A DNA stretch of 64,000 bases. It comes from an uncultured Bacteroidales bacterium. Its GTDB lineage: Bacteria; Bacteroidota; Bacteroidia; Bacteroidales; Paludibacteraceae. A program made the position numbers and the translations under genes. The stretch lies in contig CAIWCC010000104.1 of the NCBI GenBank assembly GCA_903911085.1, positions 1 to 64,000 of the forward strand, written 5' to 3'. Shown piece by piece: positions 33,329 to 39,601 of this stretch (within the stretch, counting starts at the first letter, position 1; every line of letters begins with the position of its first letter). Below the pieces are notes generated by a model. It was not told the origin of the DNA. It saw nothing but the letters and a program-made list of their open reading frames with translations, and ran no database searches.

Positions 33329-33505
33329 ATACATTTTTGTTGGCAAAGGACATTTTTTTTTGCTTATATTTTTCAAACCAGTGTTTATTTAAGAATTGAG
33401 AAGTTAATAATACGCTTAAAATGATTGAAATTTGATTTTCTCTTATAATTTGAGCCTAAATTCTATCAAATTGAATGAATAAATGTTTTTTTTATATCAA
33501 ACTAT

Positions 33506-33536
33506 TTTGTCGAATCAAATTCTTGGTTTATCTTTG
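33506..33536 (+). promoter_or_regulatory. Canonical promoter of the ilv operon
   Basis: TTTG (33506-33509), exactly 19 bp, then TATCTTTG (33529-33536) reproduces the Bacteroidota consensus TTTG-N19-TAnnTTTG. Transcription should begin near 33543, a few bases before the leader peptide. Confidence 0.85.
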
Positions 33537-33556
33537 CACCCAAAATAAAAATATAT

Positions 33557-33625
33557 ATGATTTCTCAACATATTTATATTACTATCGTGCTCGTCTTGGG
33601 TCTTTTGGTCAAAAATCAGAAGTGA
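33557..33625 (+). CDS. Ile/Val/Leu-rich leader peptide of the ilv operon
   Basis: This 22-codon open frame begins with ATG 21 bp after the ilv promoter -7 box and ends in TGA. The product starts MISQHIYIT and continues IVLVLGLLV before KNQK. Eleven of the 22 residues are branched-chain (four Ile, three Val, four Leu), concentrated at residues 6-18. Such composition is the hallmark of ribosome-mediated attenuation for branched-chain amino acid operons, as in enterobacterial ilvGMEDA and ilvB leaders. The peptide itself is unlikely to have a function; ribosome stalling on scarce charged tRNA would be the signal. It is too short for usual gene finders. Confidence 0.85.
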   Translation: MISQHIYITIVLVLGLLVKNQK

Positions 33626-33706
33626 GGATGGTTACGTTGTATAATGTATGTGAAATATAAAAGCAAAAAAAAGACCTTTCTCACCATAACGGAGAAAGGT
33701 TTTTTT
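33624..33706 (+). promoter_or_regulatory. ilv attenuator: antiterminator/terminator pair
   Basis: The terminator is ACCTTTCTC (33674-33682) paired with GAGAAAGGT (33692-33700), a 9-nt loop and then T7. The 5' arm can instead pair with GAGGATGGT (33624-33632), which overlaps the leader stop codon, in an eight-of-nine duplex including one G-U. ACTATC (33581-33586), in the codon-rich part of the leader, can pair weakly with GATGGT. This gives the 1:2, 2:3 and 3:4 alternatives expected for attenuation. The terminator hairpin is certain; the alternative pairings are inference. Confidence 0.8.
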
Positions 33707-33740
33707 ATTAACACCCTTATCTGTTTTATTAGAAAAGGAA

Positions 33741-33792
33741 AAAGTAGAATAATAAATCTCAAATAATGTCCCTTTTAAGGGCTAATAGTTTT
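33741..33792. repeat. Partial copy of the dispersed palindromic repeat
   Basis: AAGTAGAATAA followed by a GTCCCTTTTAAGGGCTAATAG segment aligns with the right half of the copy at 29748-29860 (AAGTAGAATAA, then CCCCTTCAGGGGCTAGG). It abuts the ilvD start codon and contains an upstream in-frame ATG that I do not use. Confidence 0.55.
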
Positions 33793-35628
33793 ATGAAACA
33801 CGAACTACGAAGTTTAACTAGTACTGGCGGCCGAAGAATGGCTGGAGCTCGCTCGCTTTGGAAGGCCAATGGTATGACAGACAAGCAAATGGGTAAGCCA
33901 ATTATTGCAATAGTAAATTCATTTACACAGTTTGTGCCAGGTCATGTTCATTTGCACGAAATAGGTCAAAAAGTAAAAGCCGAAATTGAAAAAATGGGAT
34001 GTTTTGCGGCTGAATTTAATACTATAGCTATCGATGATGGAATTGCTATGGGACACGATGGTATGCTCTATTCATTACCATCTCGCGACCTAATTGCTGA
34101 TAGTGTTGAGTATATGGTTAATGCTCATAAAGCAGATGCCATGATTTGTATAAGCAATTGTGATAAAATTACGCCAGGTATGCTTATGGCTGCCATGCGG
34201 TTAAATATTCCTGCAGTATTTGTATCGGGTGGACCAATGGAGGCTGGCGAATTGGATGGAAAACATCTCGATTTAGTGGATGCAATGGTTCAATCGGCTG
34301 ACGAAAGCGTTTCTGATGAGCAAGTTACCAAAATTGAAAATGCTGCATGTCCTACTTGTGGTTCTTGTTCGGGCATGTTTACTGCCAATTCAATGAATTG
34401 TTTGAATGAAGCAATTGGTTTGGCTTTACCAGGAAATGGAACTATTGTGGCAACTCATGCCAACCGTATTCAACTATTTGTTGATGCAGCTAAGTTGATT
34501 GTTGAAAATGCCAACAAGTACTATTTCGATGGTGACGAAACTGTTTTACCACGAAGTATAGCTACTCGTGAAGCATTTTTGAATGCCATGACTTTGGATA
34601 TTGCCATGGGTGGATCGACCAATACTGTTCTTCATATTTTGGCAATTGCTCACGAAGCAGGTGTTGAGTTGACAATGGACGATATGGATAAACTTTCTCG
34701 TGTTACTCCTTGTTTATGTAAAGTGGCTCCAAATTCTCAAAAATATCATATTCAAGATGTAAATCGTGCTGGTGGAATTTTGGGCATTTTAGCCGAACTT
34801 TCGAAAGGTGGTTTGGTTAATAAAGCAGTTAATCGAGTTGATGGTTTAACTTTGGGTAAAGCCGTTGAACAATATGACATAACCGCTAATACAGTTATTA
34901 CCAAAGCAATAGAAATATATAAAAGTGCGCCTGCACACCGAATTAATTTGGTGATGGGGTCACAAAATATGCAATATCCTGAACTTGATGGCGATCGAGT
35001 CAATGGTTGTATTCGCAGTGTGGCAAATGCTTATATCAAGGATGGCGGATTAGGAATTCTAAAAGGAAATATTGCGCTTGATGGCTGCGTTATAAAAACA
35101 GCTGGTGTTGACGAAAGTATTTGGAAATTTAGTGGTCCTGCAAAAGTGTTTACATCTCAAGATTCTGCATGTACTGGAATTTTGAGCGGAAAAGTAGTTG
35201 CAGGCGATGTAGTTGTTATTACTCACGAAGGTCCAAAAGGTGGCCCCGGAATGCAAGAAATGCTTTATCCAACCTCTTATATTAAATCCAAACATCTTGG
35301 TGCAGCTTGTGCGTTGATTACTGATGGTAGATTTTCTGGTGGAACTTCTGGATTATCAATTGGACATATTTCGCCAGAAGCAGCTTCAGGAGGTAATATC
35401 GGATTGATTGAAGATGGAGACATTATTGAAATTGATATTCCAAATCGGACTATCAATGTTAAATTGAGCGATGAAATATTAAATCAACGCCGTAAAGTTG
35501 AAGAAGCTAGAGGCAAAGATGCTTTTAAACCAAAAGATAGAAACCGTGTAGTTTCTCAAGCGTTAAAAGCTTATGCTAGTATGGTTAGTTCGGCCGATAA
35601 AGGAGCAGTGAGAATAATTATTAATTAA
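33793..35628 (+). CDS. ilvD: Dihydroxy-acid dehydratase IlvD
   Basis: IlvD removes water from dihydroxy-isovalerate and dihydroxy-methylvalerate, giving the oxo-acid precursors of Val and Ile. The 611-residue product has Fe-S and Mg ligands in [35 protein letters not shown] and a late [12 protein letters not shown] and [15 protein letters not shown] chose the ATG at 33793, giving [19 protein letters not shown]; an in-frame ATG at 33766 adds nine residues translated from a repeat. First structural gene of ilvDBNC, regulated by the upstream attenuator. Confidence 0.95.
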
Positions 35629-35730: not shown

Positions 35731-37428
35731 ATGGAAACAAAAACTAAAATATCAGGTGCCGAAGCATTTATTCGGTCATTATTGCACGAAGGTGTTGATA
35801 CCATATTTGGCTATCCAGGTGGTGCAATTATGCCCGTTTTTGATGCTTTATATGATTTTGATAAACATGTAAATCACATACTTACCCGACACGAACAAGG
35901 TGCTACTCATGCAGCACAAGGTTATGCACGTGTTTCAGGTAAAGTGGGTGTTTGTTTGGTGACTTCGGGACCAGCTGCTACTAATGCAATAACTGGAATT
36001 GGCGATGCAATGATGGATAGTACGCCAATGGTGGTTATAACTGGACAAGTAGGAGCGGCATTATTAGGTTCTGATGCTTTTCAAGAAATTGATGTTGTGG
36101 GTATTACGCAGCCAATTACCAAATGGGCATACCAAATTCGCAAAGCTGAAGACATAGCTTGGGCAGTGGCTAGGGCATTTTATATTGCTAGAAGTGGACG
36201 TCCAGGACCTGTTGTATTGGATTTTGCGAAAAATGCACAATTCGAAAAAATTGATTTCGATTATAAACCATGTACTTTTATTCGTAGCTATATTCCTATT
36301 CCAGAGGTTAATACAGATCAAATTGTTGCAGCGGCAGCACTAATTAATCAGGCAAAAAAACCTTTTGCATTGGTAGGTCAAGGTGTTATTTTGGCTAATG
36401 CCGAACAAGAACTAAAAGCTTTTCTTGAAAAAGGTAATATCCCTGCTGCTTGGACTTTACTCGGTTCGTCGGCAATGTCTACCGATTTTACTTTGAACAA
36501 AGGATTTTTGGGAATGCATGGAAATGTTGGCCCTAACTTGAAAACAAACGAGTGCGATGTGTTAATTGCTATAGGTATGCGTTTTGATGATAGGGTAACT
36601 GGTGATTTGAGTCGTTATGCTAAACAAGCTAAAATCATACATTTAGATATTGATATTTCTGAAATAAATAAAAATGTAAAGGTTGATGCGCCTGTTTTGG
36701 GTACAGCAAAAGAAACATTAGCTGCATTAACAGAAAAAATAAATACTGCATCACATTCCGATTGGATTGAATCGTTCAAGGAATACGAAGAGCGTGAGTT
36801 TGAGAAAGTTATACAAAAGGAAATACATCCTACTACTGCCGAAATAACTATGGGCGAAGTAATTCGCAAAGTAAGTGAAGCCACCAATAATGAAGCGATT
36901 TTAGTTACTGATGTGGGTCAAAATCAAATGATGGCAGCTCGTTATTTCAATTATACCAAAACTCGAAGCATGGTTACATCTGGGGGATTGGGAACAATGG
37001 GATTTGGGATTCCTGCCGCCATGGGTGCTAAAATTGGTGCTCCCGAACGTACAGTTTGTATGTTTGCTGGAGATGGTGGTTTCCAAATGACTATTCAAGA
37101 ATTGGGAACCATTATGCAAGAGCAAATTGGTGTAAAAATGATAATTCTTAATAATCACTTCTTGGGAATGGTTCGTCAATGGCAGGAAATGTTTTTCGAA
37201 GAACGATATTCTTTTACAAAAATGCAAAACCCTGATTTTATTGCCATTGCAAAAGCATATAGAATTGAAGGAACCGAGGTGAGTGCTCGTGAAAATCTTG
37301 ATGCTGCTATTGCTGATATGTTGAAAGACGATAAACCATATTTGTTGGTGGTTAACGTCGAAATGAAAGGCATGGTATTTCCAATGATTCCTACTGGAGC
37401 GTCAGTTAGTGATATATTATTAGGGTAA
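35731..37428 (+). CDS. ilvB: Acetolactate synthase, large (catalytic) subunit
   Basis: The enzyme condenses pyruvate with pyruvate or 2-oxobutyrate using ThDP and FAD. The 565-residue protein has the N-terminal GVDTIFGYPGGAIMPVFDALY, the ThDP-activating Glu in RHEQGATHAAQGYARVSG (about residue 49), and the Mg2+-ThDP motif GDGGFQMTIQELGT with NNHFLGMVRQWQEMFF. The 102-bp spacer after ilvD contains an imperfect inverted repeat of AATTAAGAATT type. The regulatory subunit follows 52 bp downstream. Confidence 0.96.
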   Translation: METKTKISGAEAFIRSLLHEGVDTIFGYPGGAIMPVFDALYDFDKHVNHILTRHEQGATHAAQGYARVSGKVGVCLVTSGPAATNAITGIGDAMMDSTPMVVITGQVGAALLGSDAFQEIDVVGITQPITKWAYQIRKAEDIAWAVARAFYIARSGRPGPVVLDFAKNAQFEKIDFDYKPCTFIRSYIPIPEVNTDQIVAAAALINQAKKPFALVGQGVILANAEQELKAFLEKGNIPAAWTLLGSSAMSTDFTLNKGFLGMHGNVGPNLKTNECDVLIAIGMRFDDRVTGDLSRYAKQAKIIHLDIDISEINKNVKVDAPVLGTAKETLAALTEKINTASHSDWIESFKEYEEREFEKVIQKEIHPTTAEITMGEVIRKVSEATNNEAILVTDVGQNQMMAARYFNYTKTRSMVTSGGLGTMGFGIPAAMGAKIGAPERTVCMFAGDGGFQMTIQELGTIMQEQIGVKMIILNNHFLGMVRQWQEMFFEERYSFTKMQNPDFIAIAKAYRIEGTEVSARENLDAAIADMLKDDKPYLLVVNVEMKGMVFPMIPTGASVSDILLG

Positions 37429-37480: not shown

Positions 37481-38026
37481 ATGGAAAAAACATTATATAC
37501 ACTAACGGTATTCTCTGAAAATTCAGTAGGTTTGCTGGGTCAGATTACAATTATTTTTACTCGTAGAGGAATTAATATTGAAACACTTTCTGTCTCACCA
37601 TCAGCAATTAAAGGCATTCATAAATTTACCATTACTATATATTCAACACTTGATGTAGTAACCAAAGTTGTGCAGCAAATTGATAAACGTGTTGATATTT
37701 TGAAAGCTTATTTCAATACGGACGATGAATTGATTTTTCAAGAAATTGCTCTTTATAAAATTGCTACTGATAAGCTTTTGGCAAAAGGTTCAATTGAAGA
37801 TTTGATTCGCAAATATCATATACGAATTATGGAAATGAACGAAAATTTTGTTGTGTTTCAAAAAGCCGGACATTATGAAGAAACGCAACAATTATTTAGC
37901 GAGTTAAGCGAAACTATTGGTGTATTGCAGTTTATTCGGTCGGGTAGAGTGGCCATTACTAAGTCGAAAGTAGAAAGACTTACTGATATGCTTGAGGGCA
38001 TTCAAACCAAATATGGGAAAAAATAA
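37481..38026 (+). CDS. ilvN: Acetolactate synthase, small (regulatory) subunit
   Basis: The regulatory subunit mediates valine feedback inhibition and stimulates the catalytic subunit. The 181 residues begin with an ACT domain (YTLTVFSENSVGLLGQITIIFTRRGINIETLSVSPS), typical of IlvN/IlvH, and continue with the C-terminal ALS_ss domain. Position between ilvB and ilvC fits. No truncation is seen; 96 bp of non-coding sequence separate it from ilvC. Confidence 0.95.
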   Translation: MEKTLYTLTVFSENSVGLLGQITIIFTRRGINIETLSVSPSAIKGIHKFTITIYSTLDVVTKVVQQIDKRVDILKAYFNTDDELIFQEIALYKIATDKLLAKGSIEDLIRKYHIRIMEMNENFVVFQKAGHYEETQQLFSELSETIGVLQFIRSGRVAITKSKVERLTDMLEGIQTKYGKK

Positions 38027-38122: not shown

Positions 38123-39601
38123 ATGGCAAATTATTTCAATTCACTTCCTCACCGCCTGAAAGTTCAGGAATTAGGAAAATGTGATTTTATGGAAAACAGC
38201 GAATTCGCTGATGGAGTTAACAAACTGGTTGGCAAAAAAATCGTAATAATTGGTTGTGGCGCACAAGGTCTGGCACAGGGTCAAAATATGCGCGATAGCG
38301 GACTTGATGTATCTTACGCTTTGCGACAAGAGGCTATTGACAATAAAAGAGCTTCTTTTGTAAATGCTACTGAAAATGGTTTTGTTGTTGGAACATTTGA
38401 ACAATTAATCCCAACTGCCGACTTAGTATCGAATCTTGCCCCAGATAAACAACATACTTCTGTTGTGAAAACGGTTGTTCCATTAATGAAACAGGGTGCA
38501 TGTTTGTCTTATTCGCATGGTTTCAACATTGTAGAAGAAGGCACTCAAATTCGCAAAGACATTACAGTAGTAATGATTGCACCAAAATCTCCGGCTTCTG
38601 AAGTGCGTGCCGAATACCTTCGTGGTTTTGGTGTGCCTACTCTAATCGCGGTTCACGCTGATAATAATCCTAATGGTGATGGTCTAGAAATAGCCAAAGC
38701 ATATTGCGTTGGTACAGGTGGTCATAGAGCTGGTGTTTTACTTTCGTCATTTGTGGCAGAAGTAAAATCGGATTTGATGGGTGAGCAAACCATACTTTGT
38801 GGATTGTTACAAACAGGTTCAATTCTTAGTTTTAACAAGATGGTTGAGAAAGGAATTGACGCTGGTTATGCTTCTAAATTAGTTCAATATGGCTGGGAAG
38901 TAATTACCGAAGCCTTGAAAATTGGCGGTATCACACACATGATGGATCGTTTATCGAATCCAGCTAAAATTGAAGCATTCAAATTGGCAGAAGAATTGAA
39001 AGAGATTATGCGTCCGTTGTTTATCAAACACATGGATGATATTTTGTCAGGCGAATTCTCACGTATAATGATGGAAGATTGGGCTGCTGGCGACAAAAAT
39101 CTATTGGCTTGGCGTGCTGCAACTGGCGAAACAGAATTTGAAAAAACACCAGCAGGAAATGTAGAAATTTCGGAACAAGAATACTTCGATAATGCTACTT
39201 TGATGGTTGCTTTTGTTAAAGCAGGTGTTGAATCGGCTTACGAGTCGATGACATGCTCTGGCATCAAAAACGAATCGGCTTATTATGAATCGTTGCATGA
39301 AACACCGTTAATTGCAAATACCATTGCTCGCAAAAAATTATTCGAGATGAACCGTGTGATTTCTGATACTGCAGAATATGGTTGTTATTTGTTCGACCAC
39401 GCTTGCAAACCGCTTTTGGCTGACTTTATGAAAAAAGTTGATACTAACATTATCGGTAAAAACTTTAATGCTAGTTGCAACGGTCGCGTTGATAATTTTG
39501 AATTGGTAAAAATCAATGCTGCAATTCGTAACCATTCAGTAGAAGTTTGTGGTGCTCAATTGCGCGCTGCGATGACTGCAATGAAATCAATTGTAGAATA
39601 A
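38123..39601 (+). CDS. ilvC: Ketol-acid reductoisomerase (class II, NADP)
   Basis: IlvC isomerises and reduces acetolactate and acetohydroxybutyrate. At 492 residues it is the long class II form like that of E. coli and plants, with a duplicated C-terminal knotted domain. Visible are [23 protein letters not shown] (Rossmann, about residues 40-60), [25 protein letters not shown] and [18 protein letters not shown] with metal-binding Asp/Glu. Last gene of the operon; a hairpin follows. Confidence 0.96.

Follow-up and report, generated by a model that had tools for sequence, protein, structure and literature searches.

How the ilvDBNC genes of this uncultured Bacteroidales bacterium might be controlled is a question raised by the short stretch of DNA before ilvD, where a small reading frame rich in branched-chain codons is followed by a hairpin and a run of T residues. 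Our reading of the sequence is that the element is very probably a classical ribosome-mediated transcription attenuator, and that it appears to act as an RNA switch which senses a shortage of isoleucine, valine and leucine through a stalling ribosome. The features of the locus are given below, with positions counted in the window, by which we mean the whole stretch of 64,000 nucleotides that was analysed.

33506..33536, + strand: promoter motif, with TTTG at 33506-33509, a 19-base spacer and TATCTTTG at 33529-33536 (read from the sequence)
33557..33625, + strand: leader reading frame MISQHIYITIVLVLGLLVKNQK, 22 codons from ATG 33557 and a TGA stop at 33623-33625; 11 of the 22 codons specify Ile, Leu or Val
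33622..33631, + strand: antiterminator 5' arm (arm 2), GTGAGGATGG, overlapping the leader stop codon and pairing with 33675-33684
33671..33684, + strand: shared arm 3, CCTTTCTCAC core at 33675-33684, forming the 3' half of the antiterminator and the 5' half of the terminator
33692-33699, + strand: arm 4, GAGAAAGG (read from the sequence)
33671..33706, + strand: intrinsic terminator, with a hairpin at 33671-33703 (-13.8 kcal/mol) and a run of seven T at 33700-33706
33793..35628, + strand: ilvD, first controlled gene (NF009103, 1056 bits, cut-off 710)
35731..37428, + strand: ilvB, acetolactate synthase large subunit (TIGR00118, 701 bits, cut-off 538)
37481..38026, + strand: ilvN, acetolactate synthase small subunit (TIGR00119, 70.8 bits, cut-off 56.9)
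38123..39601, + strand: ilvC, ketol-acid reductoisomerase (NF003557, 865 bits, cut-off 713)

An earlier note on this DNA had described such an arrangement, and its observation is confirmed, with positions correct to within two bases. The promoter motif, TTTG with a 19-base spacer and TATCTTTG, is present before the leader, as is the 22-codon frame with 11 Ile, Val or Leu residues, and the gene identities hold, each of the four products scoring above the cut-off of one NCBIfam model. The antiterminator pairing and the terminator stand as well, their coordinates being corrected from 33624-33632 with 33674-33682, and from 33674-33706, to those listed above. The motif is of the type that we take to be the Bacteroidota promoter consensus. 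The start codon of ilvD is probably the ATG at 33793, where the relatives align, rather than that at 33766.

The features by which an attenuator of this class is recognised are found at the locus: a reading frame carrying codons of the pathway (11 of 22) precedes the operon, a predicted intrinsic terminator that covaries among relatives lies between the leader and the first gene, a likewise covarying antiterminator that excludes the terminator shares an arm with it, and the leader stop codon is so placed that a ribosome terminating there would mask arm 2 and a stalled one would leave it free (the folding predictions are given below). The reading frame taken by itself is weak evidence, because, when the 416-base region is shuffled with its dinucleotides kept, 49 of 5000 versions (about 1%) contain a frame of 15-35 codons with at least 11 and at least 50% Ile, Leu or Val codons, thresholds that were taken from the observed value, and because 9 of the 448 small ATG frames in the window, the ilv leader among them, satisfy the same rule. 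These figures speak for a rival explanation, in which the hydrophobic frame arose by chance and has no role, and the hairpin is a plain or protein-controlled terminator that limits or insulates ilvD. Insulation by the hairpin would be unneeded, since the gene upstream of the attenuator lies on the opposite strand. None of 200 shuffles folds as well as the 170-base leader RNA (z -4.7), while the window's own duplex of arms 2 and 3 (helix 2:3) is equalled by 6 of 100 shuffles and is borderline when taken singly. What secures the observation at this locus is that the arrangement is conserved in relatives.

An ilvD search of 60 genomes, including the window's own, found the gene in 46. Upstream regions were obtained for 43 of the 45 other genomes, the remaining two being partial, and one further locus (L088) was left out as too short, at least 150 nt of upstream DNA being required. 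A parser recognised a unit of leader and terminator in 42 of the 42 same-genus or same-order relatives that satisfied this requirement; the same regions gave 2 positives in 210 when shuffled and 1 in 42 when read on the antisense strand. The comparison of relatives that the earlier note had proposed as a check supports its reading, in that the Ile/Leu/Val leader is kept in all 42 and both alternative stems covary.

A second sample consisted of 80 named ilvD loci among the matches listed, which were the best-scoring ones, with taxa taken from the database labels. Seventeen of these belong to other phyla, and the unit was present in none of the 16 having at least 150 nt upstream. The parser found it in 38 of the 63 Bacteroidota loci, one of which (L048, Prevotellaceae) was judged false, and four loci which it missed (L006, L014, L016 and L076) carry the unit whole or in part when read by eye; these lie outside the 82 units analysed below. 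The false positive was dropped from the counts, together with L002 and L003, which are the same loci as L092 and L108. Named carriers include Bacteroides graminisolvens (L005), Phocaeicola faecalis (L011), Heminiphilus faecis (L023), Marinifilum sp. (L054) and Labilibaculum sp. (L055). Relatives without such a frame, which the earlier note had named as the finding that would refute it, were seen solely further out, where 12 of the 16 listed ilvD loci labelled Prevotella, Prevotellaceae or Bacteroidaceae lack the unit both by parser and by eye. The unit-less loci are L031, L034, L035, L037, L042, L043, L046, L049, L053, L057, L073 and L075. This distribution suggests that the attenuator was lost in the Prevotella/Prevotellaceae/Bacteroidaceae branch.

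The leaders have a mean Ile/Leu/Val fraction of 0.54 over the 82 units. Among the same-genus leaders (29 of 30 were long enough), a Leu CTT codon, a Val GTC codon and the TGA stop are invariant, and a Leu TTG codon is present in 28 of 29. Pairwise codon differences within the genus comprise 2536 nonsynonymous and 831 synonymous changes, and the leader peptide is therefore not strictly conserved; 781 of 1167 changes at Ile/Leu/Val codons stay inside this set of amino acids. At 68 of 76 loci the 60 nt preceding the leader start contain the motif TAnnTTTG, which is found in 5.9% of shuffled segments; its median position at these loci is 22 nt before the start codon.

Covariation of the two mutually exclusive helices was examined in an alignment, A1, of 35 sequences chosen by hand among the 82 units so as to be diverse and to have clear arms, a choice that favours the result. 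Helix 2:3 is paired in 87.4% of cells and its double-change cells number 29, compared with 9.7 in shuffles (0/500 reaching this value), and helix 3:4 is paired in 94.3% with 33 such cells, against 7.8 (0/500). Both exceed 500 of 500 shuffles, as well as every version slid along the alignment, in cells paired, double-change cells and covariation score, and sliding either helix by 1-3 columns lowers the pairing to 40-69%. The number of helix 2:3 pairs showing a double change is six, a value reached in 19 of 500 shuffles, and slid versions give six and seven. The counts are not independent events, because the sequences are related. Arms 2, 3 and 4 have changed together in L052, L118, L120, L122, L124 and L125, among others.

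Duplex strength over all 82 units points the same way. Each arm 2 paired with its own partner yields a mean of -15.96 kcal/mol, compared with -12.57 kcal/mol for swapped partners, and none of 10,000 permutations was as good. With the segment tested anchored at the hairpin, 74 of the 82 units have an own duplex that is matched by at most 5 of 100 dinucleotide shuffles, the present locus being one of the eight that miss this mark. An earlier form of the test, with its segment tied to the stop codon (z < -2 in 62/82), was set aside, as it missed arms lying inside longer leaders. A chance frame before an ordinary terminator would not account for a leader, a stop codon at arm 2 and a covarying 2:3 helix that recur together across genera and families, nor for leader codons that track the pathway of the downstream gene (see below), and we regard that explanation as very improbable.

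The spacing of the parts also suits control by a ribosome. In 62 of the 82 units, no more than 8 nt separate the start of arm 2 from the end of the stop codon, and exactly four sense codons follow the last Ile/Leu/Val codon in 42 of the 82 leaders. Stepwise folding was performed on the RNA up to arm 3, such that only the part exposed downstream of the ribosome could fold, with an assumed footprint of 15 nt. For a ribosome placed where the longest Ile/Leu/Val run ends, the antiterminator is predicted in 78 of 82 units, as against 5 of 82 for one at the stop codon; with the ribosome at the stop, the full RNA folds into the terminator in 82 of 82. Once arm 4 has been made, a stalled ribosome no longer keeps the terminator from forming in 76 of 82 units when the full-length RNA is folded to equilibrium, and control by this attenuator must therefore be kinetic. 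Classical attenuators are held to switch in this way. Equilibrium folding of the whole leader with a masked ribosome reproduced no switching in the full-length RNA. In one simulation of the window's own leader, with coordinates off by one base, a ribosome near the last Val codon leaves arm 2 paired with the 5' leader, not with arm 3, and the antiterminator forms solely when the stall lies further upstream and precedes the synthesis of arm 4. In the absence of a ribosome, arm 2 is predicted to be taken up by the leader codons, which lets the terminator form.

The proposed course of events would then be as follows. RNA polymerase would start a short way before the leader, and a ribosome would set out on the 22-codon peptide. 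When charged Ile, Leu and Val tRNAs are ample, the ribosome would reach the stop codon and cover arm 2, whereupon arm 3 would pair with arm 4, the terminator would form and transcription would stop before ilvD. Lack of charge on a branched-chain tRNA would make the ribosome stall in the Ile/Leu/Val run, upstream of the last four sense codons, so leaving arm 2 free to capture the newly made arm 3; no terminator would form and ilvDBNC would be transcribed. If the leader were untranslated, its codons would pair with arm 2, and termination would be the default state. The leader, both alternative stems, their shared arm, the promoter motif and the placement before the matching pathway are supported by the sequence comparisons, while for the ilv unit we infer translation of the leader, stalling, the efficiency of termination and the response to amino acids or charged tRNAs.

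Leader translation could also work mainly at the level of translation, or via Rho, instead of through the intrinsic terminator, and as a general matter the passage of a ribosome would alter access to downstream RNA too. Two properties of the locus make this improbable to the same high degree as the chance frame, namely that 167 nt separate the leader stop from ilvD, and that the alternative structure which is conserved is a terminator of the intrinsic type, with its T run, and leaves the ilvD start uncovered. Direct sensing of branched-chain amino acids or tRNA by a ligand-binding riboswitch or a T-box, which would use the terminator as its expression platform, would suit a structured 5' UTR that folds better than shuffles, and is the least probable alternative, given that no Rfam riboswitch or T-box reaches its gathering score in the window, that the conserved alternative structure is the 2:3/3:4 switch and that the part preceding it is an Ile/Leu/Val reading frame. 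The sole Rfam match at gathering score in the whole window is a 5S rRNA at 1-104, and a scan of 33400-33900 with E up to 10 gave nothing above gathering, the weak matches being judged due to chance. As no Rfam family matched at gathering score, the ilv element could be proposed as one.

We return to the ribosome-mediated attenuator and its possible relatives elsewhere. A covariance model built from ilv elements, R1, was run on the window's genome, and the two best matches after ilvD lie before leuA and a prephenate dehydratase gene. The first (L128, G000:C248:16705-16820) consists of a Leu/Ile-rich leader, MNKNFLHIILLGIILLQNK, and the same type of terminator, and the second (L129, G000:C128:8715-8837, - strand) of a Phe/Tyr-rich leader, MANRFFTYFFFYFYFSR, and a terminator; the assignment of the latter gene (pheA) rests on a best model that scores under its cut-off. 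A Bacteroid-trp leader, MIAILTNNNGWWHTRLFKS, precedes trpB (L126, G000:C68:34915-35046) and scores 48.8 bits with RF01692, for which the gathering score is 49. No His leader was found before hisG in this genome, a promoter-like TACCTTTG occurring shortly upstream of the gene, and the 330 nt checked before thrA contained no ATG frame of 8-40 codons that could be a Thr leader, together with one distant terminator-like hairpin. Among the weaker matches in this genome, which also include L133 and L134, the two that were read (L131 and L132) were rejected as terminators after genes.

Across 198 genomes, R1 gave matches with E <= 0.1 in 126, many of which are mere terminators. The 29 loci read outside the window's genome are the top-scoring matches, one per genome, and in 23 of them the pathway of the downstream gene fits the leader. 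Seventeen of the 23 concern branched-chain amino acids, comprising seven genes for class IV transaminases (one of which is named ilvE by NCBIfam), nine ilvD genes and one gene for an acetolactate synthase small subunit. The other fitting loci precede three anthranilate synthase (trp) genes, one aspartokinase gene (leader MYNSTIIITIIITTGRNLAEE) and one hisG (MKNFNTHRHHFATCFQAS), and at the remaining one a poly-Cys leader precedes a peroxiredoxin gene and then a cysteine-synthase-like gene, the latter named by eye. Three of the 29 are uncertain, with a poly-Cys leader before an ABC transporter gene (L143), a carbonic anhydrase gene (L150) and an aromatic amino acid hydroxylase gene (L154), and no fitting leader was found at L147, L158 and L159. 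At L154 (G170), a short frame with HHSHYY and a terminator stand before the hydroxylase gene, which is followed by a hisH-like gene.

Two families were examined more closely. Among 25 further loci of the G133 family there are 11 Trp-rich leaders, one Ile/Leu/Val leader before ilvD, one Cys-rich leader before a PAPS-reductase gene (L176) and 12 with nothing clear, gene names being assigned by eye except at L176. In the G104 family, model matches with E <= 0.01 occur in 15 of 39 genomes, and 22 of 29 new loci were read, of which 11, from nine genomes, carry candidate poly-Cys leaders and 11 do not. These poly-Cys leaders, with terminators, precede cysteine-synthase-like or peroxiredoxin genes; the best matches of the former are cysM models, yet below their cut-offs. 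The poly-Cys loci of this one family are L146/L169, L230, L231, L232 with L244, L237, L238, L240, L241, L242 with L250, and L243, the leaders standing in tandem in two genomes (L232/L244 and L242/L250). For metY-type genes of the G133 family, 22 of 30 fetched loci were examined, six of which were unparsable; six of the 16 parsed loci have a candidate Met- or Met/Cys-rich leader and a terminator, and ten do not. The Met-type loci are L168/L200 and L201 (G133 and G268), L202, L212, L217 and L221, those at L200 and L201, in two genomes of one genus, being in tandem, and the metY-type gene at L168 is confirmed by an NCBIfam model. Tandem Ile/Leu/Val units precede branched-chain genes at L054, L055, L060, L125 and L167, three of the five loci belonging to Marinifilum, Labilibaculum or Marinifilaceae.

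These loci suggest that the same type of leader may serve many amino acids across the Bacteroidota. The wider proposition, that the phylum runs much of its amino acid and sulfur biosynthesis through one class of leader-peptide attenuator, for Ile/Val/Leu, Leu, Phe, Trp, Thr, His, Cys and even Met, with tandem copies before some operons, we hold to be somewhat favoured over its opposite. If true, an operon behind tandem attenuators would need a ribosome to stall on each of two leaders in turn, and the tandem arrays, like the Met and Cys leaders, would count as new variants. Were this architecture to precede the leu, phe, thr, his, cys and met genes as well, the one case described here would become part of a regulatory system of the whole phylum. 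A defined, covarying leader is, in addition, a direct target for tests of coupled transcription and translation in a major gut and environmental phylum, whose members are, to our knowledge, mostly without Shine-Dalgarno signals.

The author of the earlier note had not seen leader attenuation described for Bacteroidota ilv operons. The phylum already has a trp case (RF01692), and no ilv case was recognised in the literature searched, where multi-term queries could miss other wordings. A survey by Lopatovskaya et al. from 2010 (doi 10.1134/S0026893310010164) may cover ilv leaders of Bacteroidota, and the novelty is provisional on its contents. Leader genes are treated in general terms in PMC4833913, and a transcriptome study of B. 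thetaiotaomicron describes small ORFs in long 5' UTRs that resemble leader peptides, the passages concerned making no mention of ilv (PMC7366714). Branched-chain codons also abound in reading frames ahead of an ilv gene, the ilvB-II and ilvB-OMG uORFs, for which attenuation has been proposed (PMC10272879, whose main text does not contain the term 'Bacteroid'); they belong to other lineages or mixed phyla and have ilvB as first gene, whereas the ilv unit has ilvD first. These motifs are absent from the Rfam matches at the locus, and Rfam may not hold them.

The Bacteroid-trp leader, listed for the Bacteroidetes (Weinberg et al. 2010, PMC2864571), shares both the phylum and the logic of the ilv unit but carries Trp codons and precedes trp genes, whereas the ilv unit carries Ile/Leu/Val codons and scores 21 bits over 33534-33680 with RF01692, where at least 49 are required. 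The poly-Cys leaders of the one Bacteroidota family, which are followed by an intrinsic terminator, are the counterpart of the poly-cysteine leader attenuators known from mycobacteria. The classical systems are the trp, his, thr, leu and ilv leader attenuators of enterobacteria, and with these the ilv unit shares a short leader with codons of the pathway, alternative stems 1:2, 2:3 and 3:4, a stop codon adjoining arm 2 and an intrinsic terminator before the first gene. It differs from them in its Bacteroidota promoter motif, its leader sequence and its arm 3/4 core (CCTTTCTC/GAGAAAGG), and the two are likened by architecture. The class of mechanism is thus already known, within the phylum for trp, and the ilv unit is a widespread member of it with an unexpectedly broad family around it.
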